In this document: piece after piece, positions 439 to 57,957 of the stretch | Layout of the letters: each line of letters starts with the position of its first letter | Numbering within the stretch: the stretch's first letter is position 1 | NCBI GenBank assembly: GCA_002256345.1 | Contig: NKIY01000005.1 | Location: 500,485 to 564,484, forward strand | Source of the DNA: Bradyrhizobiaceae bacterium PARB1 | Lineage (GTDB): Bacteria; Pseudomonadota; Alphaproteobacteria; Rhizobiales; Xanthobacteraceae | Length of the DNA: 64,000 bases | Direction of reading: 5' to 3' | Position numbers and translations under genes: made by a program | Notes under the pieces: generated by a model | Seen by the model: only the letters and a program-made list of their open reading frames with translations | What the model was told of the DNA's origin: nothing | Databases searched by the model: none

Positions 439-795
439 TCAGTGGCTGATCATCCATGGCCGCGCGGTCGGGAAGCTCTTGGCGCCGGTTGCACTTTTCT
501 TCACGAGCCGTGACGGCTTGTCGCCGGAACAGCAGCCGCAGCCGGCCCCGTGTTTAGCCCTTTCCTGCCCGGCTTTATATTGCGCCATGGTCTTCGGCGC
601 GTTGCGACTCTGCTCATTGGTAGCGTGTGCCTTGCGCTTGTCCGAGGGCATGCAGAAGAACGCGGGCGCCGTCAGCATCACCCGGGGGGCCGATGCCGCA
701 CAGTGCGGACAATCCTGCGGATCGTCGCATTCGGCCATCGGCCGCATGTCGGTGAAGGGCCCGCAATCGTCGCAGAGATATTCGTAGACCGGCAT
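439..795 (-). CDS. fmdB: FmdB-family zinc ribbon protein
   Basis: Small zinc-ribbon protein of the FmdB family, often encoded beside formamidase and proposed to be regulatory; its biochemical role is not established. The 118-residue protein opens with MPVYEYLCDDCG, the family hallmark, and carries two CxxC knuckles (Cys8/Cys11 and Cys29/Cys32). The C-terminal half is basic and has an additional Cys-rich patch (GAGCGCC). I place the start at the ATG at 795 because of the family N-terminus and the GAGGG just upstream; another in-frame ATG lies at 807. It sits 75 bases downstream of fmdA on the same strand and probably belongs to the same transcript, as in the known fmd clusters. Confidence 0.85.
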   Translation of the reverse strand: MPVYEYLCDDCGPFTDMRPMAECDDPQDCPHCAASAPRVMLTAPAFFCMPSDKRKAHATNEQSRNAPKTMAQYKAGQERAKHGAGCGCCSGDKPSRLVKKSATGAKSFPTARPWMISH

Positions 796-869
796 AACCG
801 CCCTCATCGCAAGAAGAGAAAAGGCAGCCGCGGCGCCGATGACATGGCCCCGCGGCCGAGTTGGCCGTG

Positions 870-2099
870 TTACTTATCCGGCGACAGCGGCATCTGGATC
901 GAACCGTCGATATGTTTGATCGGCCCGGCCGCCCCCGGCATGATGTCGAAGTCGAAGATCTCCGTCGGCAGCCACAGAGTGGCGCAAGCATTCGGCACGT
1001 CAACCACGCCGGAGATATGGCCCTGACACGGCGCGGTGCCGAGGATCGAGTAGGCCTGCGCACCGGAATAGCCGAACTTCTTCAGATACTCGATCGCGTT
1101 CAGACAGGCCTGACGGTAGGCGATGTGGACGTCGAGGTAATGCTGCTTGCCGGCCTCGTCGACAGAGATGCCCTCGAAGATCAGGAAATCCTTGTAATTC
1201 GGCGTCATCGGCGACGGCTTGAACACGGGGTTCTTGATGCCGTATTTCGACACGCCGTCCTTGATGATGTCGACCTTGATGTGCAACCAGCCCGCCATTT
1301 CGATGGCGCCGCAGAAGGTGATTTCACCGTCGCCCTGCGAGAAGTGCAGATCGCCCATGGAGAGACCGCCGCCGGGCACATAGACCGGGAAATAGACCTT
1401 GGAGCCGCGCGAAAGGTCCTTGATGTCGCAATTGCCGCCATGTTCGCGCGGTGGCACGGTGCGGGCGCCTTCGGCGGCGGCCTTGTCGCGGGCTTCGCCC
1501 TTGAGGCGTCCCATATGTGCGGTCGGCCCGAAGGGCGGATTGGCGAGACCGGGCACGCGGGTGGGATTAGTGTCGATCAGCGCCTGCTCACGCTCGTTCC
1601 AGGTCGCGAGCAATTTCGGATCGGGCAGACAGCCGATCAGACCGGGATGGATCAGACCGGCAAAGTTCACGCCGGGGATGTGGCGCGACGAGGTGTACAT
1701 GCCCTTGAAGTCCCAGATCGACTTCTGCGCCTGCGGAAAGTGATCGGTCAGGAATCCGCCGCCATTCTGCTTGGAGAAGAAGCCGTTAAAGCCCCACTGG
1801 CTGTCCTTCATCGGGCCGACATCGAGCAGATCGACGACCAGGAGATCACCAGGCTCGGCGCCCTTCACGCCGATCGGGCCGGACAGGAAATGCACGATCG
1901 ACAGATCGATATCGCGCACGTCGTCGGCGCTGTCATTGTTCTTGATGAAGCCGCCGGTCCAGTCATAGGTCTCGACGATGAAGTCATCGCCGGGATTGAC
2001 CCATGCCACCATGGGAATGTCCGAATGCCAGCGATTGTGAATCATGTCGTTGTCGTAGGCCGACTGCGTCAGGTCGACCTTGATCAGTGTATCAGGCAT
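870..2099 (-). CDS. fmdA: Formamidase / acetamidase
   Basis: Hydrolyses formamide (and possibly acetamide) to ammonia and formate (acetate). It belongs to the FmdA/AmdA acetamidase-formamidase family, whose members are about 400 residues; this one has 409 and looks full length. Recognisable stretches include the N-terminal RWHSDIPMVAWVNPGD, DWTGGFIKNNDSADDV and SIVHFLSGPIGVKGAEPGD. No signal peptide is present, so the enzyme is cytoplasmic. The ATG at 2099 is preceded by a good GGGGAG ribosome site. It is the next gene after urtE (48 bases) in a seven-gene array urtABCDE-fmdA-fmdB, so amides imported by the transporter can be hydrolysed directly. The exact amide preference cannot be read from the sequence. 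Confidence 0.93.
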   Translation of the reverse strand: MPDTLIKVDLTQSAYDNDMIHNRWHSDIPMVAWVNPGDDFIVETYDWTGGFIKNNDSADDVRDIDLSIVHFLSGPIGVKGAEPGDLLVVDLLDVGPMKDSQWGFNGFFSKQNGGGFLTDHFPQAQKSIWDFKGMYTSSRHIPGVNFAGLIHPGLIGCLPDPKLLATWNEREQALIDTNPTRVPGLANPPFGPTAHMGRLKGEARDKAAAEGARTVPPREHGGNCDIKDLSRGSKVYFPVYVPGGGLSMGDLHFSQGDGEITFCGAIEMAGWLHIKVDIIKDGVSKYGIKNPVFKPSPMTPNYKDFLIFEGISVDEAGKQHYLDVHIAYRQACLNAIEYLKKFGYSGAQAYSILGTAPCQGHISGVVDVPNACATLWLPTEIFDFDIMPGAAGPIKHIDGSIQMPLSPDK

Positions 2100-2146: not shown

Positions 2147-2836
2147 CTAGACAGACAGATATTTCGCGACCTGCGCGGCATCGATGCCTTCGCGCGGCTC
2201 GTCGCGGACGATCTCGCCGTTCTCGATCACCAGCACGCGGTCGGCGACATCGAGAGCGAAGCTGAGCACCTGTTCGGAGACGATGATCGACAGTCCCTTG
2301 TCGTCCCGGATCTTCTTCAGCGTGCGCGCCATGTCCTTGATGATCGACGGCTGGATGCCCTCGGTCGGCTCGTCGAGCAGCAGCACTTTTGGCTTGGTGG
2401 CGAGCGCTCGGGCGATCGCGAGCTGCTGCTGCTGCCCCCCGGACAGATTACCGCCACGACGGCCCTTCATCTCAAGCAGCACGGGAAACAACTCGTAGAG
2501 ATCGCCCGGCACTTCTTTCTCGCCGGAGGCGACGAGGCCGGTCTCGATATTCTCCTTCACCGTCATGTGCGAGAAGATCATGCGGCCTTGCGGCACATAA
2601 GCGAGGCCCTTGGCAACGCGCTCATAGCTCTTCAGAGCGCCGATTTCCTTGCCGTCCATAGTCACCGATCCCGACTTGGTCGGCACGATGCCCATCAGCG
2701 ATTTCATCAGCGTGGTTTTACCCATGCCGTTGCGCCCCATGATCGCAACGATTTCGTTGGGCTGAACCTGAACATTGAGGCCGTGCAGGACTTCGGCATG
2801 GCCATAGGCAACATGGAGATCGTTGATCGCGAGCAT
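2147..2836 (-). CDS. urtE: Urea/short-amide ABC transporter ATP-binding protein UrtE
   Basis: Second ATPase of a branched-chain-amino-acid-type (LivF-like) importer for urea or short amides, acting at the inner face of the membrane. It has 229 residues, normal for UrtE/LivF. The Walker A loop (GRNGMGKTT) lies near residue 35, the signature is LSGGQQQQLAIARAL, and Walker B is VLLLDEPTEG. The ATG at 2836 has a strong AAGGAG 6 to 7 bases upstream. It is separated from urtD by 10 bases and precedes fmdA. The same gene order is found with fmdDEF amide transporters, so the solute may be formamide or acetamide rather than, or as well as, urea. Confidence 0.9.
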   Translation of the reverse strand: MLAINDLHVAYGHAEVLHGLNVQVQPNEIVAIMGRNGMGKTTLMKSLMGIVPTKSGSVTMDGKEIGALKSYERVAKGLAYVPQGRMIFSHMTVKENIETGLVASGEKEVPGDLYELFPVLLEMKGRRGGNLSGGQQQQLAIARALATKPKVLLLDEPTEGIQPSIIKDMARTLKKIRDDKGLSIIVSEQVLSFALDVADRVLVIENGEIVRDEPREGIDAAQVAKYLSV

Positions 2837-2846
2837 GATGATCTCC

Positions 2847-3602
2847 TTAGTGACCCAGATAGACTTCGATGACCTTGGGATCGTTCTGCACCTTCTCCAT
2901 CGTCCCCTCGGAGAGGATCTGGCCCTGATGCAACACCGTGACTTTGTGCGCGATGTCCTCGACGAATTTCATGTCGTGCTCGATCACCAGCACCGAACGG
3001 TTCTTGATGATGGTGTTGAGCAGTTCCGCGGTCTTGACGCGTTCGCTGACGCTCATCCCTGCGACGGGCTCGTCCAGCATCAAAAGGTCCGGGTCCTGGA
3101 TCAGCAACATGCCGATCTCGAGCCACTGCTTCTGGCCGTGCGAGAGCACGTCAGCATACATATTGAGGCGATCTTTCAGGAAGATCATCTCGGCAACTTC
3201 CTCGACTCGCTCCTTGACCTTGGCATCGCGCTGGAACATCAGCGAACCGAACACCGAGCGGCCGCGCGGATAGCAGATCTCCAGATTCTCGAACACGGTG
3301 AGATCTTCATAGACCGACGGCGTCTGGAACTTGCGACCGACACCGGCGGTGACGATCTCGTTCTCCTTCAGCTTGGTCAGCTCGGTGCCGCGAAACTGGA
3401 TTGAGCCAGACGTCGCTTTGGTTTTACCGCAGATCAGGTCGAGCACCGTCGTCTTGCCGGCGCCATTGGGGCCGATAATCACGCGGATTTCGTTCTCCTC
3501 CACATAGAAGGAGAGATCATTGACCGCTTTGAAGCCATCGAAGGAGACGGTGAGCCCTTCCACCGCGAGCAGAAAATCCTTGGGCTGATGTCCGATGAGC
3601 AT
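2847..3602 (-). CDS. urtD: Urea/short-amide ABC transporter ATP-binding protein UrtD
   Basis: LivG-like ATPase of the same importer, 251 residues. Walker A is GPNGAGKTT near residue 44 and Walker B is LLMLDEPVAG. The ABC signature reads LSHGQKQWLEIG, with LSHGQ in place of the usual LSGGQ; this variant is typical of UrtD proteins and helps to distinguish it from LivG. The ATG at 3602 follows AAGGAG. It lies between urtC (11 bases) and urtE (10 bases) in the operon and should form a heterodimeric ATPase with UrtE. Confidence 0.9.
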   Translation of the reverse strand: MLIGHQPKDFLLAVEGLTVSFDGFKAVNDLSFYVEENEIRVIIGPNGAGKTTVLDLICGKTKATSGSIQFRGTELTKLKENEIVTAGVGRKFQTPSVYEDLTVFENLEICYPRGRSVFGSLMFQRDAKVKERVEEVAEMIFLKDRLNMYADVLSHGQKQWLEIGMLLIQDPDLLMLDEPVAGMSVSERVKTAELLNTIIKNRSVLVIEHDMKFVEDIAHKVTVLHQGQILSEGTMEKVQNDPKVIEVYLGH

Positions 3603-3613
3603 GATGTGTCTCC

Positions 3614-4762
3614 TTACTCAGCCGGCGCGCCGTCGGCGGCGGATTTGACGGGCCAGTCCTTCTTCGACTTCGACGAGAAGGCGGCGATCAGCTTGTCCAC
3701 GTGGCGCTGCACGTGATCGCGCCAGATGCCGGACAGGCCGTTCGGGAAGAACAACACCACCGCGATGAAGAGGCCGCCCAGACCGAACAGCCAGAGTTCA
3801 GGGAAGGATTCCGAGAGGCTGGTCTTGGCGAAATTGACCAGCAGCGCGCCGTAGACGGCACCGAAGATCGACGACCGGCCGCCGACGGCCGTATAGATCA
3901 CCATCTCGATGGACGGCACGATGCCGACGAAGGACGGTGACATGAAGCCGATCTGCAGCGTGAACATGGCGCCGCCGATCGCGGCAAAGACAGCCGCCAT
4001 GCAGAAAGCGAAGATCTTGAAGTTCGCGACGCTGTAGCCGGAGAAGCGGACACGATCCTCCTGCTCACGCATCGCGACGAGAATACGTCCGAGCTTGGTG
4101 AGACGAATGAACTGCGCCGTGACGATGCAGCCGAACAGAACGAACACTTCGAAGAAATAGAGGATGAATTTGGCGCTGTCGGTGCGGATGTCCCAACCGA
4201 GCAGCGTCCGCAGGTCAGTCATGCCGTTGATGCCGCCGGTATAGCCCTGCTGGCCGATGATGAGGATGGTCGCGATCGCCGCAATCGCCTGGGTGATGAT
4301 GGCGAAATAGACTCCGCCGACCCGGCGCTTGAACATCGCGGCACCGATGATGAAAGCCAGCACGGCCGGCACCACGAAGATCGCGATGATCGTCAGCGTC
4401 AGCGAATGGAACGGCTTCCAGAACATCGGCAGCGACGTGATCTGATTCCAGTCCATGAAGTCGGGAATGCCGGGCGTGGTCTGAATCTTGGTATTCGCGA
4501 CGCTCGAGGCTTCCAACTTCAGGAACATCGCCATGCAGTAGCCGCCGAGGCCGAAGAAAACGCCCTGGCCGAGGCTCAGAATGCCGCCATAGCCCCAGCA
4601 CATCACGAGACCGATGGCGACGAAGGCGTAGGTCAGATATTTGGCGACAAGATTGAGCCTGAAAATATCGAGACAAAGCGGCAGAATGACAACGAGCAGC
4701 AACGCAAGCGACAGGAAGCCGATGAGTTCCGAGCGATTGAAGAAGCGCGAATTGATGACCAT
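3614..4762 (-). CDS. urtC: Urea/short-amide ABC transporter permease UrtC
   Basis: LivM-like inner-membrane permease, 382 residues with about nine to ten hydrophobic segments. Family stretches include MCWGYGGILSLGQGVFFGLGGY near residue 55 and the C-terminal AVYGALLVNFAKTSLSESFPELWLFGLGGLF. A periplasmic or cytoplasmic insert (NTKIQTTPGIPDFMDWNQ) after the third segment is a UrtC feature compared with plain LivM. The ATG at 4762 is used; its ribosome site is weak. It is 45 bases downstream of urtB and pairs with it as the permease heterodimer. Confidence 0.9.
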   Translation of the reverse strand: MVINSRFFNRSELIGFLSLALLLVVILPLCLDIFRLNLVAKYLTYAFVAIGLVMCWGYGGILSLGQGVFFGLGGYCMAMFLKLEASSVANTKIQTTPGIPDFMDWNQITSLPMFWKPFHSLTLTIIAIFVVPAVLAFIIGAAMFKRRVGGVYFAIITQAIAAIATILIIGQQGYTGGINGMTDLRTLLGWDIRTDSAKFILYFFEVFVLFGCIVTAQFIRLTKLGRILVAMREQEDRVRFSGYSVANFKIFAFCMAAVFAAIGGAMFTLQIGFMSPSFVGIVPSIEMVIYTAVGGRSSIFGAVYGALLVNFAKTSLSESFPELWLFGLGGLFIAVVLFFPNGLSGIWRDHVQRHVDKLIAAFSSKSKKDWPVKSAADGAPAE

Positions 4763-4807: not shown

Positions 4808-5734
4808 TTATTTGCGGACCTTGAGGGCGAACAGACCCTGCGGACGGATCATCAGGATCGCGACGATGGTGAGCAGCGTCAGCACCTTGGCCATCGAGCC
4901 GGACATGAAGAATTCCATGGTCGACTGGGCCTGCGAGATGGTGAAGGCCGAGGCGATGGTGCCGAACAGGCTGGCTGCACCGCCGAACACCACGACCAGG
5001 AACGTGTCCACGATATAGAGCTGGCCCGAGGTCGGCCCGGTCGAGCCGATCATAGTGAAGGCGGAACCGGCGATCCCCGCGATGCCGCAGCCAAGTCCGA
5101 AGGTATAGCGGTCGACCTTCTCGGTATTGATGCCGACAGCGCCGGCCATCACGCGGTTCTGCACCACGGCGCGCACCTGCTTGCCCCAGCGCGACTTGAA
5201 CATGATCCATGCGACCACGAGGGTGATGACCACCGTGAGGCACATCACGAAGATGCCGTTGATCGGGACTTCGATCGTATCGGTGACCTGCTTGGAGCCC
5301 ATCATCCATTGCGGTAGTTCGACGCCGACCTCGCGCGCACCGAAGATCGAGCGATAGGCCTGTTGCAGGATTAGGCTAAGCCCCCAGGTCGCCAGTAACG
5401 TGTCGAGCGGGCGCTTGTAGAGAAAGCGTATAAGCCCCCATTCCACCAGCATCCCCAGACTGCCTGACGCGATGAAAGCAAGGATCATGGCGACGAAGAA
5501 GTAGCCGGAGAACAGCGATGGCAAATACGCTTGAAAGAAATTCGAAGTCATCCAGGTGACGTAGGCGCCCAGGATCATGAACTCGCCATGGGCCATGTTG
5601 ATGACGCCCATCTGGCCGAAGATGATCGCGAGACCGAGCGCCATCAGAACGTAGACCGAGAACAGGATCAGTCCGGCAAAGCCCTGCATTGCAAAGATGG
5701 CGCCGAGATCGCCAATCGAGTAGTCGCCGAACAT
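4808..5734 (-). CDS. urtB: Urea/short-amide ABC transporter permease UrtB
   Basis: LivH-like inner-membrane permease, 308 residues. The N-terminal segment (LILFSVYVLMALGLAIIFG) is followed by QMGVINMAHGEFMILGAYV, the typical LivH/UrtB motif. Some UrtB proteins carry a long extra N-terminal domain; this one is the permease core only, as in FmdE of amide transporters. I start at the ATG at 5734; a TTG lies one codon upstream. A strong hairpin occupies the gap between urtA and this gene. Confidence 0.88.
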   Translation of the reverse strand: MFGDYSIGDLGAIFAMQGFAGLILFSVYVLMALGLAIIFGQMGVINMAHGEFMILGAYVTWMTSNFFQAYLPSLFSGYFFVAMILAFIASGSLGMLVEWGLIRFLYKRPLDTLLATWGLSLILQQAYRSIFGAREVGVELPQWMMGSKQVTDTIEVPINGIFVMCLTVVITLVVAWIMFKSRWGKQVRAVVQNRVMAGAVGINTEKVDRYTFGLGCGIAGIAGSAFTMIGSTGPTSGQLYIVDTFLVVVFGGAASLFGTIASAFTISQAQSTMEFFMSGSMAKVLTLLTIVAILMIRPQGLFALKVRK

Positions 5735-5763
5735 CAATCCATCCTCTGTTGCGGGAGACAGAT

Positions 5764-5844: not shown

Positions 5845-7104
5845 TTACTGGTAGCCCTTCGGGAACGGATCCGGTTCGATCAGTTCGGGCGTCTCGTAGA
5901 CCACCTTAAACTGGCCATCGGTCTGCGCCTGGCCCACACGCGCCTTTGACCAGAGGTGATGGTTTGGATGGATCTTGACGTAGCCTTCCGGCGCCTTGGT
6001 GAATTCGATGCCTGCGGACGCCGCTGCGATCTTGTCGATATCGAACGAGCCGGCCTTCTCCACGGTCATCTTCCAGAGCCACGGGCCAAGATAGGCCGCC
6101 TGGGTGACGTCACCGATCACGGTCTTCTCGCCCCACATCTTCTTGAAGGCGGCCACAAACTCTTTGTTGTTCGGATTATCCAGCGACTGGAAGTACTTCA
6201 TACAGGCATAGGCGCCTGCGATGTTCTCGCCGCCGATACCGTCGATCTCGTCCTCGGTGACCGAGATGGTCAGCATGGTCTGCTTCGACAGATCGATGCC
6301 AGCAGCCTTCAGCTGCTTGTAGAAGGCGACGTTGGAGCCGCCGACGACCGCAGCATAGATCACATCGGGCTTGGTGAGCTTGATCTTGTTGATCACCGAG
6401 TTGAACTGGGTGTGGCCGAGCGGGAAGTATTCCTCGCCCGAGACTTTGCCGCCGAGCTTGCCCTCGATATGCTTGCGGGCGATCTTCATCGACGTGCGCG
6501 GCCAGATGTAATCCGAGCCGATCAGATAGAAGCTCTTGCCCTTCTTCTCCTTGGCGACCCAATCGAGGCCGGCGAGGATCTGCTGCGTGGCTTCCTGGCC
6601 GGTATAGATCACGTTCTTCGACTGCTCGAGACCTTCATAGAAGGTCGGGTAATAGAGCATGCCGTTATACTGCTCCATCACGGGCAGCACCGCCTTGCGC
6701 GAGGCCGAGGTCCAGCAGCCCATGATGGCGGCGACCTTGTCGTTGACCAGCAGCTTCTTCGCCTTCTCTGCAAAGGTCGGCCAGTCCGAGGCGCCATCCT
6801 CCTGGATGAACTTGATCTTGCGCCCGAGCACGCCGCCCATGGCATTGATCTGCTCGATGGCCAGTTTCTCGGCCTGCACCGAGCCGGTTTCCGAGATCGC
6901 CATGGTGCCAGTGACGGAGTGCAGGATGCCGACCGTGACTTCGGTATCGGTCACCGCAAGGCCCGTGGTGTTGACGGCTGAGGTCGCAGGCGCCTGCGCA
7001 AAAGATGTGCGCGGGAACATCGACATCGCCGGCAGCGCCGCCATGCCCATCAGCAGTTTTCGCCGTAACGGCGAGTGCAGGCCCGGTTTTTTCTCGTCTG
7101 ACAT
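5845..7104 (-). CDS. urtA: Urea/short-amide ABC transporter substrate-binding protein UrtA
   Basis: Periplasmic binding protein of the importer, 419 residues, belonging to the Peripla_BP_6 (LivJ/AmiC) fold. The N-terminus has a twin-arginine-type signal (SPLRRKLLMGMAALPAMSM) ending near SFAQA. The mature part opens with TDTEVTVGILHSVTGTMAISE, the usual first strand of UrtA, and contains MGCWTSASRKAVLPVMEQY. The ATG at 7104 follows GGGGA; a GTG lies one codon upstream. It is the first gene of the urt-fmd array and diverges from the sensor kinase at 7265 across 160 bases. Ligand is urea or a short amide by family and context. Confidence 0.92.
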   Translation of the reverse strand: MSDEKKPGLHSPLRRKLLMGMAALPAMSMFPRTSFAQAPATSAVNTTGLAVTDTEVTVGILHSVTGTMAISETGSVQAEKLAIEQINAMGGVLGRKIKFIQEDGASDWPTFAEKAKKLLVNDKVAAIMGCWTSASRKAVLPVMEQYNGMLYYPTFYEGLEQSKNVIYTGQEATQQILAGLDWVAKEKKGKSFYLIGSDYIWPRTSMKIARKHIEGKLGGKVSGEEYFPLGHTQFNSVINKIKLTKPDVIYAAVVGGSNVAFYKQLKAAGIDLSKQTMLTISVTEDEIDGIGGENIAGAYACMKYFQSLDNPNNKEFVAAFKKMWGEKTVIGDVTQAAYLGPWLWKMTVEKAGSFDIDKIAAASAGIEFTKAPEGYVKIHPNHHLWSKARVGQAQTDGQFKVVYETPELIEPDPFPKGYQ

Positions 7105-7215
7105 CACTTCCCCACTGGTTTGAAACGCTTATTGGTGAGGCAAGTGTTGCTGAACTTAAGCGCTCCTCGGATACGTGGGATTGCGTATACTGCACCGCAA
7201 AATGCCGACGTAGGT

Positions 7216-7231
7216 TTTGCTATCACGCAAA
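7216..7231. promoter_or_regulatory. Candidate operator between urtA and the sensor kinase
   Basis: A small inverted repeat, TTTGC-N6-GCAAA, lies in the 160-base region between the divergent urtA and kinase genes. I looked for a sigma-54 promoter (GG-N10-GC) on both strands and did not find a convincing one. The repeat is short and could arise by chance; it is listed because it is the only symmetric element in this control region. Confidence 0.25.
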
Positions 7232-7264
7232 TATGCGTAGGGACGTTGGGGTCAGGAGTGGGGA

Positions 7265-10200
7265 GTGGCAGGGCGGCAGCGGATCGACCGTGTTCGGCGC
7301 CAATACAATCAATGGGTCGCCAATCAGACCCTTGAGGATTACGCGCTCCGCTTCACCGCGAAGAGCGCGCGCCGCTGGTCCGCCGCCCGGGTTGCCAACA
7401 CTGCCCTCGGCGCCATCTCGTTTCTCGCGCTGGAAGCCATCGGCGGCACCATCACCATCAATTACGGCATGACCAACGCCACGGCGGCGATCCTCGTCGT
7501 CAGCGTCATCATCTTCTGCTGCGGTCTGCCCATTGCCTATCACGCGGCGCGCAGCGGCATCGATATCGACCTTCTCACCCGCGGCGCCGGCTTCGGCTAT
7601 ATCGGCTCGACCATCACCTCGCTGATCTATGCGTCCTTCACTTTCATCTTCTTCGCCATCGAGGCGGTCATCCTCGCCGCGGCGCTGGAGATGTGTTTCG
7701 ATATTCCGCGCCCCATCGGCTATCTGATATCGGCGGTGGTGATCATCCCGCTGGTCACCCACGGCATCACGCTAATCAGCCGATTCCAGCTCTGGACCCA
7801 ACCGATCTGGCTGGTTCTCAATCTCGCCCCTTTCGTCGCCATTGCCTATGCCAGTCGGCAGTCCTTCACCGAATGGACCGCCTATCCCGGCCTGCATGGC
7901 GATCCCAACGGCGGCCTCGACCTGCTGCTGTTCGGAACTGCCGCCGCTGTGATCTTCTCGCTGGTGGCGCAGATCGGCGAACAGGTCGACTTTCTGCGCT
8001 TCCTACCGCGCGACCGCCGGCAATCGAAGGTGAGCTGGTGGATCGCCCTGCTCTGCGCCGGCCCCGGCTGGATCATCGTGGGCGCCGTCAAGCTACTGGC
8101 CGGCTCGTTCCTGGCCTATTTCGCGCTGACCCATGGCGCGACACCGGAACAGGCCGCGGAACCCGCGCATATGTATCTCGAAGCGTTTCGTTACGTGCTG
8201 TCGCAGCCGGATCTGGCATTGGCGCTGACCGGCACCTTCGTGATCCTGTCCCAGCTCAAGATCAACGTCACCAATGCCTATGCGGGCTCCATCGCCTGGT
8301 CGAACTTCTTCTCGCGCCTGACCCATAGCCATCCCGGCCGCGTGGTCTGGGTGGTGTTCAACGTGCTGGTGGCGCTGCTGCTGATGGAAATCGGCGTCTA
8401 CAAGGCGCTGGAACAGACGCTCGCGCTGTATTCCAACGTCGCCATCGCATGGGTCGGCGCGCTGGTCGCCGATCTCGTCATCAACCGTCCGCTCGGACTG
8501 CGCCCGCAGCAGATGGAGTTCAAACGCGCGCATCTCTACGATATCAATCCAGTCGGCGTCGGCGCCATGCTCGCCGCCACCGTGATGTCGGTCAGCGCCT
8601 TCTACGGCCTGTTCGGCCCCACCGCGAAAGCACTGTCTCCCTTCGTCGCTCTCGTCACTGCGCTCGTCACGGCACCGATCATCGCTTATGCTACCGGCGG
8701 AAAATACTACATCGCGCGAAAGCCCAAGCGCGCCTGGCAGAATGTGGAAGCGATCCAGTGCTGCATCTGCGAGCACACATTCGAACATGAGGACATGGCG
8801 CATTGCCCGGCCTATGCCGGCCCGATCTGCTCGCTGTGCTGCTCGCTCGATGCCCGTTGCCACGACCTCTGCAAGCCCCATGCGCGCGTCGATGCGCAGA
8901 TCGCCGCCGCCTTCGGCGGTATCGTGCCGGAGCCGCTGCTGGCGCGGCTCAACTCGCAGCTCGGCCACTATCTCAGCGTCTTTCTTGCCGCCGCAGGACT
9001 AGTCGGGCTGACACTCGCGCTGATCTATCTGCAGACCTCTGCCGCCTCGCCCGGCGACAGCACGGCGGTGTCCGACGTGTTGTGGAAGGTGTTCTTCGCC
9101 CTCGCCATCATCATCGGCGTTGTTGCCTGGTTGTTCGTGCTCGCCAAGCAGAGTCGACGCGCGGCCGAAGCCGAGACCCAGCGGCAGACCACACTGCTGA
9201 TGCAGGAAATCGAGGCGCACAAGCGCACCGATGCCGAATTGCAGCGCGCCAAGGAGGTTGCGGAGTCAGCCAATCTCGCCAAGAGCCGCTATGTGGTCGG
9301 CCTCAGCCACGAGCTGCGCTCGCCGCTCAATGCCATCAGCGGCTATGCGCAGTTACTCGAACAGGACGACAGCCTGCAGACCCGCCCGCGCGAACAGGTG
9401 CGCGTCGTCAAGCGAAGCGCCGATCATTTGTCCGGGCTGATCGACGGCATTCTCGACATTTCCAAGATCGAGGCCGGTCGCCTCTATCTGTCGCGCGACG
9501 AGGTGCGCCTCACCGATTTCCTCGATCAGCTCGTCGGCATGTTCCGGCTGCAGGCGACCGCAAAGGGCATCGAATTCATCTTCCGCCGCCCGCCCGTACT
9601 GCCCGCCGTGGTCTATGCCGACGAGAAGCGCCTGCGGCAGATCCTCATCAACCTGCTTTCCAATGCCATCAAGTTCACGCAGGACGGCAACGTCCAGTTC
9701 GTCATTCACTATCGTAGCCCCGTCGCCGAATTCGAGATCATCGACACCGGTCCCGGCATCCGCGCCGACGATCTTGAGCGCATCTTTGCTCCGTTCGAGC
9801 GCGGCGCGCTCGGTGCCGCCCAGCCGCATACCGGCACCGGCCTCGGTCTCACCATCTCGAAGCTGCTGGCCGGCGTCATGGGCGGCGATATCCGCGTCTC
9901 CAGCGAGGTCGGCACGGGCAGCACCTTTCGCGTGAAGATGCTGCTGTCCGAGGTCAACAACCCCACCCGCACCGCGCCCATCGAAGCTCCGATCCTCGGC
10001 TATCACGGCCCGCGCAAGACCATCCTCGTCACCGACGACGACCCGAGCCAGCGCGACCTCCTGCGCCAGGTGCTCACCCCGCTCGGCTTCATCCTGCTCA
10101 GCGCGCCAGACGGCCCGGCCTGTCTCAGTCTCGCCCAGCACTGCCGTCCGGACATGTTCCTGCTGGACATCTCGATGCCCGGCATGGATGGCTGGACCGT

Positions 10201-10636
10201 CGCCGAGACGCTGCGCGCCACCGGCCATCATCAGGCGCGCATACTGATGGTCTCCGCCAGCGCGCTGGAAGCCCATGGCGCGCCGCTCGCGCAGCCATTC
10301 CACGATGGCTATCTGATGAAGCCCGTGGAGCTGCCGCGCCTCCTCGAAATGATCGGCCAGCTCCTCAAGATCGAGTGGCGCTACGATCGCGACGAGACCG
10401 CAGCCGAACAGCACTGGACACCGGACGACACCTGCCCGCCCGCACATCGTATCGATCAGCTGATCAGCCTCGGCGAGATGGGCCACATCCGCGCCATCCA
10501 GATGAAGCTCGACGAGATCGGTGCCGAACATCCCGAGCACATGGCCTTCGTCGCGCAGATGCGCATGCTGATCGATCGCTTCGATCTCGACCAGTACATG
10601 TCTCTCCTCAAGACGTTGCAGACACATGACTCCTGA
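7265..10636 (+). CDS. NCS1-permease/histidine kinase/receiver fusion
   Basis: A 1123-residue membrane sensor. Residues about 20-490 look like a complete NCS1-family nucleobase/allantoin/hydantoin:cation symporter with ten or more hydrophobic segments (for example GAISFLALEAIGGTITINYG). Residues 499-536 form a cysteine cluster (Cys499, 500, 502, 514, 522, 525, 526, 532, 536), probably metal-binding. Two further membrane segments follow (about 560-640), then a coiled coil, a HisKA domain with phospho-acceptor His682 in LSHELRSPLN, an HATPase domain (NLLSNAIKF, DTGPGI, GTGLGLTISK) and a REC domain with Asp968 in LLDISMPGMDG. A tail of about 80 residues follows. The start is a GTG at 7265 preceded by AGGAG. 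The next gene overlaps its end by 11 bases. Divergent from the urt-fmd operon, it may sense extracellular nitrogen compounds; ligand and transport ability are unknown. Confidence 0.88.
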   Translation: MAGRQRIDRVRRQYNQWVANQTLEDYALRFTAKSARRWSAARVANTALGAISFLALEAIGGTITINYGMTNATAAILVVSVIIFCCGLPIAYHAARSGIDIDLLTRGAGFGYIGSTITSLIYASFTFIFFAIEAVILAAALEMCFDIPRPIGYLISAVVIIPLVTHGITLISRFQLWTQPIWLVLNLAPFVAIAYASRQSFTEWTAYPGLHGDPNGGLDLLLFGTAAAVIFSLVAQIGEQVDFLRFLPRDRRQSKVSWWIALLCAGPGWIIVGAVKLLAGSFLAYFALTHGATPEQAAEPAHMYLEAFRYVLSQPDLALALTGTFVILSQLKINVTNAYAGSIAWSNFFSRLTHSHPGRVVWVVFNVLVALLLMEIGVYKALEQTLALYSNVAIAWVGALVADLVINRPLGLRPQQMEFKRAHLYDINPVGVGAMLAATVMSVSAFYGLFGPTAKALSPFVALVTALVTAPIIAYATGGKYYIARKPKRAWQNVEAIQCCICEHTFEHEDMAHCPAYAGPICSLCCSLDARCHDLCKPHARVDAQIAAAFGGIVPEPLLARLNSQLGHYLSVFLAAAGLVGLTLALIYLQTSAASPGDSTAVSDVLWKVFFALAIIIGVVAWLFVLAKQSRRAAEAETQRQTTLLMQEIEAHKRTDAELQRAKEVAESANLAKSRYVVGLSHELRSPLNAISGYAQLLEQDDSLQTRPREQVRVVKRSADHLSGLIDGILDISKIEAGRLYLSRDEVRLTDFLDQLVGMFRLQATAKGIEFIFRRPPVLPAVVYADEKRLRQILINLLSNAIKFTQDGNVQFVIHYRSPVAEFEIIDTGPGIRADDLERIFAPFERGALGAAQPHTGTGLGLTISKLLAGVMGGDIRVSSEVGTGSTFRVKMLLSEVNNPTRTAPIEAPILGYHGPRKTILVTDDDPSQRDLLRQVLTPLGFILLSAPDGPACLSLAQHCRPDMFLLDISMPGMDGWTVAETLRATGHHQARILMVSASALEAHGAPLAQPFHDGYLMKPVELPRLLEMIGQLLKIEWRYDRDETAAEQHWTPDDTCPPAHRIDQLISLGEMGHIRAIQMKLDEIGAEHPEHMAFVAQMRMLIDRFDLDQYMSLLKTLQTHDS

Positions 10637-11561
10637 ACCCAAGATATCAGATGCCAAGAAACGCGACGTTGCCCTCGTGGTGGATGACAGCCCCGATACG
10701 CTCCGGCTCCTGACCGACGCGCTGGACGGTGCCGGCATGACCGTCATGGTCGCACTCGATGGCGCCGGCGCCATGCGCATCGTCGAACAGATCACGCCGG
10801 ACATCGTGCTTCTCGATGCTGTGATGCCAGGTATCGACGGATTCGAGACATGCCGTCGCCTCAAGCGCGATGCGGGCCTCGCCGATGTCCCGGTGATCTT
10901 CATGACCGGCCTCAGCGAGACCGCCCATATCGTCCGTGGCCTGGAAGCCGGCGGCGTCGATTATGTCACCAAACCCATCGTGATCGAGGAGATGCTGGCG
11001 CGCATCCGCGTCCATCTCGCCAATGCGCGCCTCACCCAAAGCGCCCGCGCCGCCCTCGACGTGTCCGGTCGCTTCCTGCTCGCCGTCAACAAGCGCGGCG
11101 AGGTGCTGTGGGCAACGCCGCAGGCGCAGAAGCTGCTGAGCGATCATCTGATCGCGGGCATCGACGACACATTGCGACTACCGGCCACGCTACTGCAGTG
11201 GCTCGACCAGATGCAGAAGCCAGCCGCAAGGCCGGCTCCGTCCGCGCCTTTCACCGACAACGAATTGCTCCGCTTGAACTATATGGGCAAGGCGGGCCCA
11301 GACGAATTCCTGCTCCGTCTCGCCAAGGACGGCACCGCCGCCGTGCCCAGCGAATTCAGCAGGGAGCTCGGCCTCACCGCCCGCGAAGGCGAGGTGTTGT
11401 CCTGGCTCAGCAAGGGCAAGAGCAATCGCGACATCGCGCAGATCCTTGGCCTCTCGCCGCGCACGGTCGACAAGCATCTGGAGCAGATCTACGCCAAGCT
11501 CGGCGTCGAGAACCGTACAGCCGCTGCTGCCGTCGCGGTGAATGCCACGCAGCGTCGGTAA
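10626..11561 (+). CDS. Response regulator, REC plus LuxR-type DNA-binding domain
   Basis: Transcription factor of 311 residues, the likely output partner of the permease-kinase. An N-terminal REC domain (about 14-135) has the acidic pair in VVDDSP, phospho-acceptor Asp64 in IVLLDAVMPG and Lys in VTKP. A linker of about 110 residues without a recognised family is followed by a C-terminal LuxR/NarL helix-turn-helix (LTAREGEVLSWLSKGKSNRDIAQILGL...). The start ATG lies inside the last codons of the kinase, so the two are translationally coupled. Because the kinase already has its own REC domain, the pair implies either a phosphorelay or a branched output. Targets are not visible; the adjacent urt operon is the obvious candidate. 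Confidence 0.9.
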   Translation: MTPEPKISDAKKRDVALVVDDSPDTLRLLTDALDGAGMTVMVALDGAGAMRIVEQITPDIVLLDAVMPGIDGFETCRRLKRDAGLADVPVIFMTGLSETAHIVRGLEAGGVDYVTKPIVIEEMLARIRVHLANARLTQSARAALDVSGRFLLAVNKRGEVLWATPQAQKLLSDHLIAGIDDTLRLPATLLQWLDQMQKPAARPAPSAPFTDNELLRLNYMGKAGPDEFLLRLAKDGTAAVPSEFSRELGLTAREGEVLSWLSKGKSNRDIAQILGLSPRTVDKHLEQIYAKLGVENRTAAAAVAVNATQRR

Positions 11562-11643
11562 TAAGCGCTCAACCAAGTTTCATCGAGGAACCGTCGCAGC
11601 CGGTCGGCCACGCCGCATGCCGCCGCCGCGCTGCAATGCGAAA

Positions 11644-11685
11644 TGTCAAATTCGCCATTGACAGATAAATTCGCTAATATCTAAT
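11644..11685 (+). promoter_or_regulatory. Candidate promoter with overlapping palindrome
   Basis: A perfect -35 hexamer TTGACA at 11658-11663 is followed after 16 bases by TCTAAT at 11680-11685, a near-consensus sigma-70 promoter for the binding-protein gene at 11752. The -35 hexamer is also the right arm of an inverted repeat, TGTCAA-N8-TTGACA (11644-11663), so a bound repressor would block polymerase. The IclR-family protein encoded nearby is one possible ligand of this site. Surrounding DNA is locally A+T-rich. Confidence 0.5.
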
Positions 11686-11751
11686 CTTTCCAAAAACAGA
11701 CGACCAAGCAAAACGGCCCCGGCAGACGGGCCACTTTCGGGAGAGAAACAC

Positions 11752-12969
11752 ATGACGCGCCACGTGCTGGCGTGGGCGACTGCGCTCGCGCTTTCGACCA
11801 CCGCCGTTTCCACACCATCCCTTGCGCAGGTCTCCGACGACGTCGTCCGCATCGGCGTGCTGACCGACCTGTCGAGCTGGGGCCGCGACAACAGCGGTCC
11901 AGGCTCAGTCGAAGCCGCGAAAATGGCAGTCGAGGAATTCGGCAAGACCGTGCTCGGTAAACCCATCGAGATCATCAGCGCCGACCACCAGATGAAGTCC
12001 GATGTCGGCGTGCAGATCGCGCGCAACTGGTTCGACAATGGCAAGGTCGACGCCGTAGTCGATATCCCGAATTCCGCCATCGCCATTGCGGTTCACAATC
12101 TCGCCCGCGAGCGCAACAGGATCGCGCTGCTGTCCGGTCCGGGATCGAGCGCCCTCACGGATGAGCTGTGCAGCCCGAACACGGTGCAGTTCACCTACGA
12201 CACCTATGCCCTGTCGAAAGTGACCGCCTCTGCCGTGGTCGCGGAGGGCGGCAAGTCCTGGTACTTCATCACGGCCGACTATGCCTTCGGCAGCCAGCTC
12301 GAGAACGACGCCACACGCTTCATCAAGGCCAGTGGCGGCACCGTGGTCGGCGGCGTCCGCCATCCCACCAATACGGCAGATTTCTCGTCCTTCGCCCTGC
12401 AGGCGCAGAATTCGAAGGCCAATGTCGTCGCCTTCGCCAATGCCGGCCAGGACACCGACAATTCCATCAAGCAGGCCGGCGAATTCGGCCTCGTTAAAGG
12501 CGGCCAGAAGCTGGTTGGCCTGCTGATGTTCGATACCGACGTGCACGCCATCGGCCTTGACGCCGCGCAGGGCACCTATCTCACCACAGCGTCCTACTGG
12601 AACATGGACGACAGGACGCGTGCCTGGTCGAAGAAGTTCTTCGCCAAGACGAATGTGATGCCGACCATGATCCAGACCGGCGTCTATGGCTCGGTGCTGC
12701 ATTATCTCAAGGCCATCAAGGCCGCCGGCACCGACGATCCCGCCAAGGTGATGGCGAAGATGCGGGAGTTGCCCATCGAGGACACTTTCGTCCATGGCGG
12801 CAAGCTGCGCGAGGACGGCCGCGTGATCCGCGACATGTATCTCGCCAAGGTCAAGAAGCCTTCGGAGTCCAAGGAACCGTGGGACTATCTCGACATCGTC
12901 AAGACGGTGAAGGGCGAGGACGCGTACCGCCCCGTCTCGGAATCCAAGTGCCCGCTGCTGAAGAAGTGA
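11752..12969 (+). CDS. LivK-type ABC substrate-binding protein
   Basis: Periplasmic binding protein of the branched-chain amino acid/aromatic acid class (Peripla_BP_6), 405 residues. A cleavable signal peptide ends near PSLAQ, and the mature protein starts with the typical VVRIGVLTDLSSWGRDNSG. Such proteins bind amino acids, amides or aromatic acids for LivHMGF-type importers. No LivHMGF permease or ATPase genes are next to it, so it is an orphan component here. It is followed after only a few bases by a flavin dehydrogenase, suggesting that the ligand is the substrate or precursor of that catabolic enzyme. The start ATG has GGGAG upstream. Confidence 0.85.
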   Translation: MTRHVLAWATALALSTTAVSTPSLAQVSDDVVRIGVLTDLSSWGRDNSGPGSVEAAKMAVEEFGKTVLGKPIEIISADHQMKSDVGVQIARNWFDNGKVDAVVDIPNSAIAIAVHNLARERNRIALLSGPGSSALTDELCSPNTVQFTYDTYALSKVTASAVVAEGGKSWYFITADYAFGSQLENDATRFIKASGGTVVGGVRHPTNTADFSSFALQAQNSKANVVAFANAGQDTDNSIKQAGEFGLVKGGQKLVGLLMFDTDVHAIGLDAAQGTYLTTASYWNMDDRTRAWSKKFFAKTNVMPTMIQTGVYGSVLHYLKAIKAAGTDDPAKVMAKMRELPIEDTFVHGGKLREDGRVIRDMYLAKVKKPSESKEPWDYLDIVKTVKGEDAYRPVSESKCPLLKK

Positions 12970-12976
12970 GGTGACC

Positions 12977-14701
12977 ATGGCCAGCGATCCAGCAACTGCA
13001 ATCGAGACCCATGAGTGCGACGTGCTGGTCGCTGGCTCCGGTTGTTCCGGCATGTCGGCGGCAATCACCGCCAGGCATGGCGGTCTCGACGTCCTGATCG
13101 TCGAGAAAGAGCCCCGCTTTGGCGGCACGACTGCACGCTCCGGCGGCTGGCTGTGGGTGCCTGGTACATCACTGGCGAAGGCATGGGGCATCCATGAAAG
13201 CCCCGATCAGGCTCGCACCTATCTCCGGCACGAGGCGGGCAACAGTTTCGACGCTGCACGCGTCGATGCCTTTCTGACCGCGGGTCCGGAGGCGATCGAC
13301 TTCTTCACCACGCAGACCGCCGTGCGCTTCGACATGCCGCTGACCTTCCCGGACTACGACGCCGAAGCGCCGGGCGGCACCCAGGGCGGTCGCTCCATGG
13401 TGGCACGACCGTTCGACGGGCGCGAACTCGGCGACAACATCAAGAACATCGGCGCGCCGCTGCCCGAACTCACCGTGTTCGGCATCATGCTGGGCTCTGG
13501 TAAGGACATCATCCATTTCATGCGCGCGACCAAGTCGCTGACCTCGGCGATCTATGTGGCCAAGCGGTTGTCGAAACATCTGAGGGATGTACTCAGCCAC
13601 GGCCGCGGCATGACGCTGACCAACGGCAATGCGCTCGCCGGCCGTCTTGCCAAGTCGGCCTTCGATCTCAAGATCCCGCTATGGCTCTCGTCGCCGGTGC
13701 GCGAGCTGATCGTGGAGAACGGACATGTGCGTGGCGCCATCGTCGAGCGTGACGGCAAGCGCGTGCGTGTCATCGCGCGTCGCGGCGTCGTGCTTGCCTG
13801 CGGCGGCTTCCCGCACGATGTCGAGCGCCGCAAGGCCATGTTCCCGCATGCGCCCACAGGTCGCGAGCATTATTCGCCCGGTCCCACCGGCAATACCGGC
13901 GACGGCCTTCGCCTCGCCGAGACCGCCGGCGGCCGTGTGGAGGACTCGCTGCCGAACGCCGCGGCCTGGGTGCCGGTTTCGGTCACCACGCGCAAGGATG
14001 GCAGCAAGGGCGTGATGCCGCATTTCATCGACCGCGCGAAGCCGGGCGTCATCGCCGTGCTGCGCGACGGCACCCGCTTCGCCAATGAAGGCAACTCCTA
14101 TCACGCCTTCGTTCAGGAGATGATGCGCGCGACCAAGCCGGGCGACGAGATGGCTGCCTGGCTCGTCTGCGATCACCAGGCGCTGCGCCAGTATGGCCTC
14201 GGCGCCGTTCCGCCTTTCCCCATGCCCATCGGCCGCTACCTGCGCTCGGGCTATCTCATCAAGGGCGCGACACTGGACGAACTCGCGAACAATGCCGGGA
14301 TCGATGCGACTGCCTTCGCGAAGACCGTCGCACAATTCAACACCGCCGCTGCGAACGGTCACGATCCCGCCTTCGGCAAGGGCTCGCGTGCCTATAACCG
14401 CTATCAGGGCGACGCCCAGCATGGCCCCAACCCTTGCGTGGCGCCGATCGAGAGCGGGCCGTTCTACGCCATCAAGATGGTGATCGGCGATCTTGGCACC
14501 TATGCGGGCATCAAGACCGACGCCCATGCGCGCGCGCTGGACGGCAATGGCGAGGTGATCGGCGGGCTCTATGCCGCCGGCAACGACATGGCGAGCATCA
14601 TGGGCGGTAACTATCCCGGCGCCGGCATCACGCTCGGCCCTGCCCTCACCTTCGGCTATATCGCCGGCCGTCATCTCGCCGGCAAACCGGTGGCGGCCTA
14701 G
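12977..14701 (+). CDS. FAD-dependent dehydrogenase (fumarate reductase/ketosteroid dehydrogenase-like)
   Basis: Flavoprotein of 574 residues in the FAD_binding_2 family, which includes fumarate reductases and 3-ketosteroid delta-1-dehydrogenases. The N-terminal dinucleotide fold (CDVLVAGSGCSGMSAAITA, then IVEKEPRFGGTTARSGGWLW) and the C-terminal FAD segment (GLYAAGNDMASIMGGNYPGAG) are both present. There is no signal peptide, so it acts in the cytoplasm. I use the ATG at 12977 because of the GAGGTG before it; a GTG occurs two codons upstream. It sits between a binding-protein gene and a short-chain dehydrogenase, consistent with a small oxidative pathway. A steroid substrate is possible but not shown. 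Confidence 0.85.
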   Translation: MASDPATAIETHECDVLVAGSGCSGMSAAITARHGGLDVLIVEKEPRFGGTTARSGGWLWVPGTSLAKAWGIHESPDQARTYLRHEAGNSFDAARVDAFLTAGPEAIDFFTTQTAVRFDMPLTFPDYDAEAPGGTQGGRSMVARPFDGRELGDNIKNIGAPLPELTVFGIMLGSGKDIIHFMRATKSLTSAIYVAKRLSKHLRDVLSHGRGMTLTNGNALAGRLAKSAFDLKIPLWLSSPVRELIVENGHVRGAIVERDGKRVRVIARRGVVLACGGFPHDVERRKAMFPHAPTGREHYSPGPTGNTGDGLRLAETAGGRVEDSLPNAAAWVPVSVTTRKDGSKGVMPHFIDRAKPGVIAVLRDGTRFANEGNSYHAFVQEMMRATKPGDEMAAWLVCDHQALRQYGLGAVPPFPMPIGRYLRSGYLIKGATLDELANNAGIDATAFAKTVAQFNTAAANGHDPAFGKGSRAYNRYQGDAQHGPNPCVAPIESGPFYAIKMVIGDLGTYAGIKTDAHARALDGNGEVIGGLYAAGNDMASIMGGNYPGAGITLGPALTFGYIAGRHLAGKPVAA

Positions 14702-14703
14702 CC

Positions 14704-15471
14704 ATGACCGTGTTCGCACCCGATCTGCTGCTCGGCCAGCTCGCCCTCGTCACCGGCGCCGGCAATGGCAACGGCCGCGCCATCGCGCTCGGCCTCGCCG
14801 CTCATGGCGCCGAGGTGATCGTAACGGATATCGATGGCGAGGCCGCAGCCGATACGGCCCGCGAGATCAATGCCCGCGGCGAGCGCTCATGGCACCACCG
14901 GCTCGACGTCACGAATGTCGAGGCCTGCCGCGCGCTCGCGGATATCATCCGCCAACAGGCCGGCGACATCTCCATCCTCGTCAACAATGCGGGCATCATC
15001 ATCCGCGAGGGCATCGATTCCGACCGCGCGGCCGAGAACTGGCGCCGCGTGCTCGACGTCAATCTCAACGGTGTCTTCAATGTCACCCACGCCATTCTGC
15101 CGGCTTTGCGCGCTCGGCACGGCAGCGTGATCAATCTCGGCTCCATCGCGTCCTTCGTGGGTGTCGCCGATACGCTCGGTTATTCGCCATCCAAAGGCGG
15201 GGTAAAACTCCTGACTCAGGCGCTCGCGCGCGAACTCGCGAAAGACGGCGTACGCGTGAATGCACTCGCGCCGGGCGTGATCGAAACCGCCATGACCGAG
15301 GGCACGCGCAACGATCCCGTCCGCCTCGCCGGCTTCCTCGGCCGTACACCGCTCGGTCGCGTCGGCCAGCCGTCAGAGCTTGTTGGGCCCGTGGTGTTCC
15401 TCGCCTCCGACATGGCCTCATATGTGAACGGCGTGACCTTGCCGGTGGATGGCGGCTTCCTCGCCGTGTAA
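14704..15471 (+). CDS. Short-chain dehydrogenase/reductase (SDR)
   Basis: Classical SDR oxidoreductase of 255 residues. The cofactor loop reads TGAGNGNGRAIALG near residue 18, the NNAG motif is present, and the catalytic residues are visible as Ser in NLGSIASF and Tyr/Lys in YSPSKGG. The PG motif (LAPGVIETAM) follows. Acidic residues after the second strand (TDIDGE) favour NAD(H) over NADP(H). It begins 2 bases after the flavin dehydrogenase stop, so the two are almost certainly cotranscribed and may act on the same carbon skeleton. The substrate is unknown. Confidence 0.9.
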   Translation: MTVFAPDLLLGQLALVTGAGNGNGRAIALGLAAHGAEVIVTDIDGEAAADTAREINARGERSWHHRLDVTNVEACRALADIIRQQAGDISILVNNAGIIIREGIDSDRAAENWRRVLDVNLNGVFNVTHAILPALRARHGSVINLGSIASFVGVADTLGYSPSKGGVKLLTQALARELAKDGVRVNALAPGVIETAMTEGTRNDPVRLAGFLGRTPLGRVGQPSELVGPVVFLASDMASYVNGVTLPVDGGFLAV

Positions 15472-15496
15472 TGTCGCGCTCTGAGTTGGGGCAAGC

Positions 15497-16282: not shown

Positions 16283-16318
16283 CGGCACGGTAGCGCTGCA
16301 CAAGATCCCTGCGCGACA

Positions 16319-16333
16319 ACTTGTCTGACAAGT
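16319..16333. promoter_or_regulatory. Candidate operator upstream of the sugar-type ABC genes
   Basis: Perfect inverted repeat ACTTGT-CTG-ACAAGT in the gap between the IclR gene and the solute-binding protein gene. It is followed by a stem-loop (TCCCCG-N5-CGGGGA, 16388-16404) before the ribosome site. The palindrome resembles FadR/FCD-type GntR operators as much as an IclR site; no GntR gene is in the neighbourhood. Function is inferred from symmetry and position only. Confidence 0.4.
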
Positions 16334-16453
16334 GGCATGTCCAGCTTGCCACCCCGCCTCAGCATGTTACGCTTCCCTTCAGGCGCATCCCCGGTGAACG
16401 GGGAGCGACCATAAAATCACCGCCGGTCAAGGCGGCTTGAGGGAGGACTACCC

Positions 16454-28369: not shown

Positions 28370-28388
28370 CTTGCTTGCTTCGCCGCGA

Positions 28389-49220: not shown

Positions 49221-49232
49221 GCGATGCTGTTT

Positions 49233-53511: not shown

Positions 53512-53525
53512 TTTGTTTCTTTCAT

Positions 53526-53574
53526 GAGCATGATCTTGTCCGAAAACCGGCGGCCACTTTTCGGGATCATGCTC
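53526..53574. repeat. Palindromic dispersed repeat (GAGCATGATC family)
   Basis: A 49-base near-palindrome: GAGCATGATC (53526-53535) with its exact complement at 53565-53574, and inner arms CCGAAAA and TTTTCGG. This unit is well known as a frequent intergenic repeat in Bradyrhizobium and relatives. It fills most of the 62 bases between cobO and cobQ, and its end touches the cobO stop codon. It could act as a processing or attenuation stem in the transcript. Confidence 0.85.
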
Positions 53575-57916: not shown

Positions 57917-57957
57917 GCGGGTGAATATGCCTCTGTGTGACGAGCCGACGGTGATTG

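Follow-up and report, generated by a model that had tools for sequence, protein, structure and literature searches.

What does a histidine kinase sense whose N-terminal half resembles a membrane carrier, and which genes does it serve? The question is raised by a gene in a stretch of 64,000 nucleotides from contig NKIY01000005.1 of Bradyrhizobiaceae bacterium PARB1 (here called the window, to which all unassigned positions refer), where one frame joins a permease-like domain to a hybrid histidine kinase and lies divergent from a urtABCDE-fmdA-fmdB operon. Judged from sequence, gene order and structural models, the protein is rather likely to be an amide/urea receptor kinase that was built from a permease and would switch on the divergent urt-fmd operon. 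Its parts are the following (aa, amino acids).

7265..10636, plus strand: NCS1-like permease, Cys ribbon and hybrid histidine kinase in one protein of 1123 aa (frame analysis, Pfam, same-genus matches)
7322..8728, plus strand: NCS1-like permease domain, about aa 20-488 (hhalign, AlphaFold2, Foldseek)
8750..8884, plus strand: Cys-rich ribbon, about aa 496-540, putatively zinc-binding (six Cys in 39/39 fused members)
8954..9160, plus strand: additional membrane hairpin, about aa 564-632, that continues into the kinase (hydropathy, full-length model)
9281..9478, plus strand: HisKA domain with phospho-acceptor H682 (Pfam, alignment of full-length relatives)
9620..9943, plus strand: HATPase_c domain (Pfam)
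10022..10354, plus strand: receiver domain with D968 (Pfam, alignment)

The frame begins with GTG and runs without interruption through permease-like domain, Cys-rich ribbon, two-helix membrane hairpin, HisKA, HATPase and receiver. The G+C content at the codon positions stays similar along its length and gives no sign of two joined frames, and 14 of 17 genomes of the same genus contain a full-length, single-frame match; in two others (G008 and G007) the gene is matched in pieces on other contigs, and in G017 the best listed match is a kinase match only. A frameshift or chimera, which an earlier note on this DNA had considered, was rejected because the single frame is kept in relatives and the codon-position G+C changes little. 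HisKA (aa 673-738), HATPase_c (786-893) and Response_reg (920-1030) pass the Pfam cut-offs, and aligning 33 full-length relatives shows no variation at H682, N796, N800, D827, D924, D925, D968 and K1019. The C-terminal half is a hybrid histidine kinase with its catalytic residues in place.

The N-terminal half is less easily named. The earlier note had taken it for an NCS1 symporter and proposed a search for Transp_cyt_pur together with HisKA and HATPase; the two kinase domains are found, whereas Transp_cyt_pur (PF02133) gives no match at E 10. Pfam yields no family at all for aa 1-502 at that threshold, and PF02133 is also absent from the families matched by 45 family members. A non-transporter N-terminus was rejected as well, no such family being assigned to aa 1-502. 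Profile comparison by hhalign with five independently found PF02133 members from the same taxonomic family gave a probability of 89.8 (E 1.8e-6). Five NCS1-like proteins which had themselves been reached through the permease family of the kinase gave 99.9 (E 4.6e-32); the only one of these scanned against Pfam, P0003, passes PF02133 and is a standalone Paracoccus aminophilus protein, 28% identical, which adjoins hydantoinase genes. An AlphaFold2 model of aa 1-665 from 45 sequences reached a mean pLDDT of 79.8 and a pTM of 0.82, with lower confidence at residues 341-380 (blocks of 54-69). The five best PDB chains in a Foldseek search with this model are all NCS1 proteins, namely Mhp1 and CodB (2jln, 7qoa twice, 4d1a and 2x79; E 1.3e-9 for 2jln to 4.1e-7, TM-score 0.61-0.77 by target and 0.46-0.50 by query), and other LeuT-fold carriers rank behind them. 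No solved structure is matched directly by the sequence of the domain, and the family profile finds among solved structures a zinc finger at E 5.8 only. On profiles and model, the domain has an NCS1-like LeuT fold and belongs to a remote branch. The NCS1 assignment thus holds for the kind of protein and for its fusion to a hybrid kinase; it does not hold for typical membership, as the permease half belongs to a branch of its own, mostly with a C-terminal Cys ribbon, which the Pfam model misses.

Gene context gives a hint to the ligand. With aa 1-635 as query and a threshold of E 1e-10, matches were found in 54 of 398 genomes sampled from the phylum, in two of them as a weak match (G215) or a 50-residue fragment (G276). 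For the context we used 57 places from this sample whose identity was 45% or higher across most of the query; the G276 fragment as well as G233:C40 and G215 (25-28% identity) were left out, and the stretches extend 2.8 to 9 kb upstream, less near contig ends. Genes for urt, FmdA or urease stand beside the kinase in 55 of the 57 places, and the two places free of markers, L235 and L226, end 366 and 0 bases upstream at contig ends. The places divide into urt with FmdA and AmiE (17), urt with FmdA (16), urt (8), urease (8), urt with urease (4), FmdA (2) and none (2); an ATP-binding cassette (ABC) importer adjoins the kinase in 45 of them. For comparison, none of 20 regions of 17 kb chosen elsewhere in 20 of those genomes holds any marker. 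In a second set from named genomes, the best 80 of at least 592 matches and therefore biased to near relatives, UrtA is divergent in every one of the 77 loci that extend 1300 bases or more upstream, 52 times as the type found in the window and 25 times as another type. Where 9 kb upstream are present, FmdA accompanies 43 of 44 loci of the window's UrtA type and none of 22 of the other. The divergent operon for urea/amide import and hydrolysis described by the earlier note is an arrangement conserved far beyond the PARB1 genome. Several genomes encode two copies, one at an amide-type or urt operon and one at urease: G265 (L215, L216), G286 (L255, L217), G417 (L263, L211) and G198 (L246, L219).

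Carriers without a kinase tell the same story. The nearest are 39-53% identical to the domain. Four belong to urease operons, in Acinetobacter (L160, L207), Klebsiella pneumoniae (L161) and L201. Those of Moraxella (L043) and Tsukamurella (L163) adjoin FmdA, those of Methylovirgula (L048) and another species (L202) adjoin both FmdA and an aliphatic amidase, and the Arthrobacter one (L164) adjoins an aliphatic amidase. A urease, formamidase or amidase context is seen in nine of the 11 standalone relatives whose neighbours were read, a count which leaves out the unannotated L206, L208 and L209; the neighbours of L162 and L210 are uninformative. The loci L202 and L048 each combine the sensor with a standalone permease, together with formamidase and no full urt operon. 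As FmdA, nitrilase-type amidases and urease have one kind of neighbour in common, the shared denominator would be a small amide or urea as substrate. From these neighbours the standalone branch probably imports urea or short amides, and the standalone permease of the four urease operons may be a urea permease. In the records those urease-operon genes (L161 7989-9596, L160, L207 and L201) are called cytosine/allantoin permease or hypothetical. Taken together, the contexts of fused and standalone forms point to urea, formamide or acetamide as the probable ligand of the domain, and not to nucleobases.

The neighbours in the window itself are the following.

10626..11561, plus strand: LuxR-type response regulator, 11-base overlap with the kinase end (frame analysis, Pfam)
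5845..7107, minus strand: UrtA-type binding protein (passes the TIGR03407 cut-off)
4808..5737, minus strand: UrtB-type permease (profile search)
3614..4762, minus strand: UrtC-type permease (profile search)
2847..3602, minus strand: UrtD-type ATPase (profile search)
2147..2836, minus strand: UrtE-type ATPase (profile search)
870..2099, minus strand: FmdA formamidase/acetamidase (PF03069)
439..807, minus strand: FmdB-like zinc ribbon protein, start perhaps further in (similar to the genes annotated as FmdB in L043 and L048)
7172..7187, no strand: 7-2-7 inverted repeat TACGTGGGATTGCGTA, proposed regulator site (pattern scoring, two mismatches)
7224..7239, no strand: second 7-2-7-like repeat, two mismatches (pattern scoring)

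The operon is divergent from the kinase, and 157 bases separate the divergent frames. The UrtA protein scores 547.4 bits against the curated urea model TIGR03407 (cut-off 492.75), and gene names alone therefore cannot separate urea from amide. A urt-like ABC operon with formamidase of the same type as in the window is known from B. japonicum (blr0968-0972); its solute was argued to be an amide, possibly acetamide or formamide (PMC3098086; this and the other papers given by PMC number for known systems are cited from excerpts), and the same reading was given to a Pseudomonas cluster (PMC13209695). The term histidine kinase occurs in neither of these two texts.

The binding site and the relation of fused to standalone forms were analysed with 57 domains. 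Mhp1 residues were mapped onto the domain by alignment, and around transmembrane helix (TM) 6 two alignments differ. We take W117 and W220 of Mhp1 to be the Trp pair which sandwiches hydantoin, and S312 to be the Ser of its Na2 site. W117 corresponds to F129 (F in 50 of 53, L in 3), Q121 to E133 (E in all 57), N318 to N337 (N in all 57) and S312 to K332 (K in 53 of 53, R in four NCS1 outgroup rows). W220 falls on residue 234, which is non-aromatic and mostly I, V or M, with the uncertainty of the TM6 alignment. By alignment, then, neither the aromatic sandwich nor the Na2-site residues of Mhp1 are kept, and F129, the non-aromatic residue 234 and the invariant E133 point to a smaller and polar substrate site. 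In a maximum-likelihood tree of these domains, a quick search with SH-aLRT support only, the 14 standalone forms are a single clade (97) and so are the 34 hybrid-kinase forms (98); two small fused groups, L172, L173 and L049 on the one hand and L204 and L205 on the other, stand apart (L049 is counted as fused, its kinase part unchecked). The window domain groups with the standalone forms, apart from NCS1. The base of the tree gives no clear branching order and would fit one fusion together with one loss as well as several fusions. A few positions separate fused from standalone forms. In TM1 E57 is present in 39 of 39 fused forms and L56 in 37 of them, and all 14 standalone forms combine D56 with either F or Q at 57. 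At position 377 in TM10, 38 of the 39 fused forms carry G and the 14 standalone forms N, D or S. This split could mark the change from carrier to receptor.

Between permease and kinase lie two further elements. Eight ribbon Cys are conserved in fused forms, six in 39 of 39 and two more in 37 with two gaps. Standalone relatives carry the ribbon or a remnant of it in the alignment, which argues that it is not a kinase feature. The two hydrophobic helices of the hairpin are missing from the aligned standalone forms. In a full-length monomer prediction from 33 sequences (pLDDT 79.6, pTM 0.57) the second hairpin helix is a single helix from 596 to 699 which enters the phospho-acceptor domain, a plausible push-rod in this model, where residues 631-700 have a block pLDDT of 60-72. 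Pfam gives only weak and unconvincing matches for the linker (aa 476-667), and it is uncertain whether Pfam holds STAC; as the sole SLC5 match in the PARB1 genome is a 502-aa frame, there is no comparator for a STAC linker.

We propose that the NCS1-like domain binds formamide, acetamide or urea and that the rocking of the permease would be relayed via the Cys ribbon and the extra hairpin into the phospho-acceptor helix, where it would set autophosphorylation at His682. The phosphate would pass to the overlapping LuxR-type regulator, with the internal receiver tuning or relaying the signal, and this regulator would bind 7-2-7 inverted repeats between the divergent genes and thereby turn on urtABCDE-fmdA-fmdB. 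An inverted 7-2-7 layout is known for NarL (PMC4549865).

The pattern TACGYMA-N2-TKRCGTA was taken from words common to 52 intergenic stretches. Scores of at least 12 of 14 are reached in 57 of 78 kinase-urtA stretches, among which near relatives such as Bradyrhizobium are over-represented, compared to 0.63 expected from base shuffles. The 25 stretches with the other UrtA type were not used in pattern finding, and 14 of them reach this score (0.23 expected), as do 4 of 740 comparison tiles. Both repeats of the window fall inside the 157-base gap and no other is found within the 64 kb. The shuffled window contains 0.75 sites on average, and 20 of 100 shuffles have two or more; the number of sites alone is therefore weak and it is the location that counts. 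Ten of a further 24 upstream stretches reach at least 12, two of them by one shared site in L202. None of the six does so where the type of output or regulator differs or no LuxR match adjoins (L172, L173, the second L203 copy, L204, L205 and L224). The regulator itself was not listed by the automatic tallies for L117, L121, L252, L253, L254, L256, L172 and L173, although L117 has a shorter LuxR-type regulator which the tally missed; L172 and L173 have an OmpR-type regulator instead.

Which ligand and which mode of action best agree with all this? The nearest folds, Mhp1 with hydantoin and CodB with cytosine, and the allantoin or cytosine permease labels of some relatives would speak for a sensor of nucleobases, allantoin or hydantoin, the type of substrate assumed in the earlier note. 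These labels, however, are homology-based names, the aromatic sandwich is lost in the alignment used, and fused and standalone members stand mostly with urt, formamidase, amidase and urease genes (55 of 57 places for the kinase), so that we regard such a ligand as very improbable. Hardly better are the prospects of a permease domain which is a mere anchor while the signal enters elsewhere, for example through the metal or redox state of the Cys ribbon or through nitrogen status. The conserved ribbon Cys would suit it. However, conservation of the permease part matches that of the full protein (mean column identity of 64% over aa 1-665 and 61% over the full length), its polar core residues are invariant, and the ribbon occurs, at least as a remnant, in permeases without kinase.

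A true transceptor, whose domain would still import the amide and whose kinase would follow the transport cycle, a mode proposed for CbrA, has more to recommend it and is nevertheless rather unlikely. E133, Q236, E239, Q240, K332, N334 and N337 are identical in all 53 fused and standalone members, and K332 maps by alignment to Ser312 of the Na2 site of Mhp1. Proton-coupled CbrA also contains a Lys in its Na2 site, on a different helix (PMC13022988). Against it, fused forms shift the TM1 acid from position 56 to 57 and replace N/D377, and the adjoining ABC importer would make import redundant at those places. Because of this importer and of the changed TM1 and TM10 positions we lean slightly to binding with little or no transport; the TM1/TM10 differences may mean just that, which would bear on the coupling of substrate passage to gene control suggested in the earlier note. 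Several points weigh against our preferred reading of an amide/urea receptor kinase. The TM1/TM10 differences may be one event, since the 14 standalone forms are one clade, and transport may survive, since E57 retains the TM1 acid. For the fusions L204, L205 and L224 and the second L203 copy, the stretch read shows no urt, FmdA or urease gene that belongs to them, and they may have another ligand. The repeat pattern was chosen from 52 of the same 78 stretches on which it was scored, and it reaches at least 12 in only two of eight urease-linked fusions without urt.

Fusions of transporters to kinases are a known kind. CbrA, CrbS and RpuS, the SLC5/STAC kinases, likewise have an N-terminal LeuT-fold transporter domain on a sensor kinase for nutrient use (PMC9100948, PMC13022988), and the earlier note had rightly called on CbrA as a precedent in principle. 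RpuS/R depends on a conserved promoter motif (PMC9100948), and the kinase family treated here has a conserved motif in the stretch between kinase and urtA as well. In contrast, no SSF (SLC5) match was found by Pfam in the full kinase or in aa 1-502, CbrA has STAC and PAS where the window protein has Cys ribbon and membrane hairpin, and the ligands are histidine, acetate or pyruvate instead of the presumed amide or urea class. CbrA is reported to move histidine (PMC13022988). Ks-Amt5, the ammonium transporter-histidine kinase of Kuenenia, binds its ligand and moves it inefficiently (PMC5764959); it offers a parallel, a transporter having become the sensory part of a kinase that responds to a small nitrogen compound, and differs by its ammonium transporter family, for which the window kinase has no Pfam match. 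From Mhp1 and CodB, its best fold matches and remote homologs by profile, the window domain differs by the fused kinase, the missing Pfam match, loss of the Trp sandwich and the Na2-site Ser, the Cys ribbon and the amide/urea gene context. For Ectopseudomonas guguanensis a hybrid histidine kinase and a LuxR-type regulator were mapped alongside urtABCDE operon III, with fmdA close in number (PMC13296017). This is probably the same type of locus; the permease domain of the kinase and its ligand are not discussed in the excerpt of that paper. What seems new here are the transporter branch, the linker, the proposed ligand class and the GGDEF-EAL version described below; in searches of open-licence papers no description of fusion, transporter branch, linker, ligand class or GGDEF-EAL version was found.

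The family also occurs on plasmids. A plasmid collection of 72,556 records contains 531 with a match, of which Klebsiella accounts for 342, and the names listed for matches are often merely 'ATP-binding protein'. On the Klebsiella plasmid L044 a CN_hydrolase formamidase without similarity to FmdA fills the formamidase slot. The urt-formamidase cluster with the divergent sensor kinase lies at 7909-17381 of this plasmid, which is from Klebsiella variicola; the PLSDB gene table, which is incomplete, shows no regulator after the kinase. The 'UTS' of Klebsiella CG307 was described as urt plus AmiF (PMC13060141), and the L044 cluster is probably the same system. Histidine kinase does not occur as a term in that preprint. 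No relative was confirmed in viral contigs. Two records named Acinetobacter phage MD-2021a (H121 and H122, 329 and 379 kb) contain a standalone relative and may be host sequence.

Outputs other than the hybrid kinase are also found. In L172 and L173, a second sensor lineage, the permease module sits on a kinase without receiver, adjoining FmdA, the OmpR-type regulator and a receiver-kinase protein, L205 has a PAS-PAS-kinase-receiver output, and in L204 (6852-10520) the module is joined to PAS-GGDEF-EAL with no amide or urease marker in the stretch; this cyclic-di-GMP enzyme may be controlled by a similar ligand. The chances seem to us evenly balanced for a wider view, in which an amide-permease domain, Cys ribbon and membrane hairpin form a portable urea/amide sensory module. 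It would be akin to an unrecognised family of urea/short-amide permeases, encoded by the genes labelled 'cytosine' or 'allantoin' permease at urease and formamidase loci, among them that of K. pneumoniae. Several outputs would have been attached to it, namely hybrid kinases, plain kinases, a PAS kinase and a PAS-GGDEF-EAL protein. Positions in TM1 and TM10 would have been altered between carrier and receptor, and paralogues of the same genome would serve amides in one case and urea in the other. If these readings are true, they name the missing sensor of a common nitrogen-scavenging operon in soil and plant-associated bacteria and on many Klebsiella plasmids, give a function to a family that often lacks a telling name, and suggest that urease operons contain urea permeases of a new family. 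With their shared polar core, the standalone permease and the fused receptor would then form a natural pair for asking how a transporter becomes a receptor, a question testable by swapping two or three positions.

Elsewhere in the window, a 549-aa frame at 28272-29921 has no Pfam family at 1e-5 and adjoins a beta-lactamase-family protein at 29985-31391. A TonB-dependent receptor, a protein with a periplasmic-binding domain and a CobN-type chelatase are clustered at 45473-58018, perhaps as a cobalamin or metal cluster.

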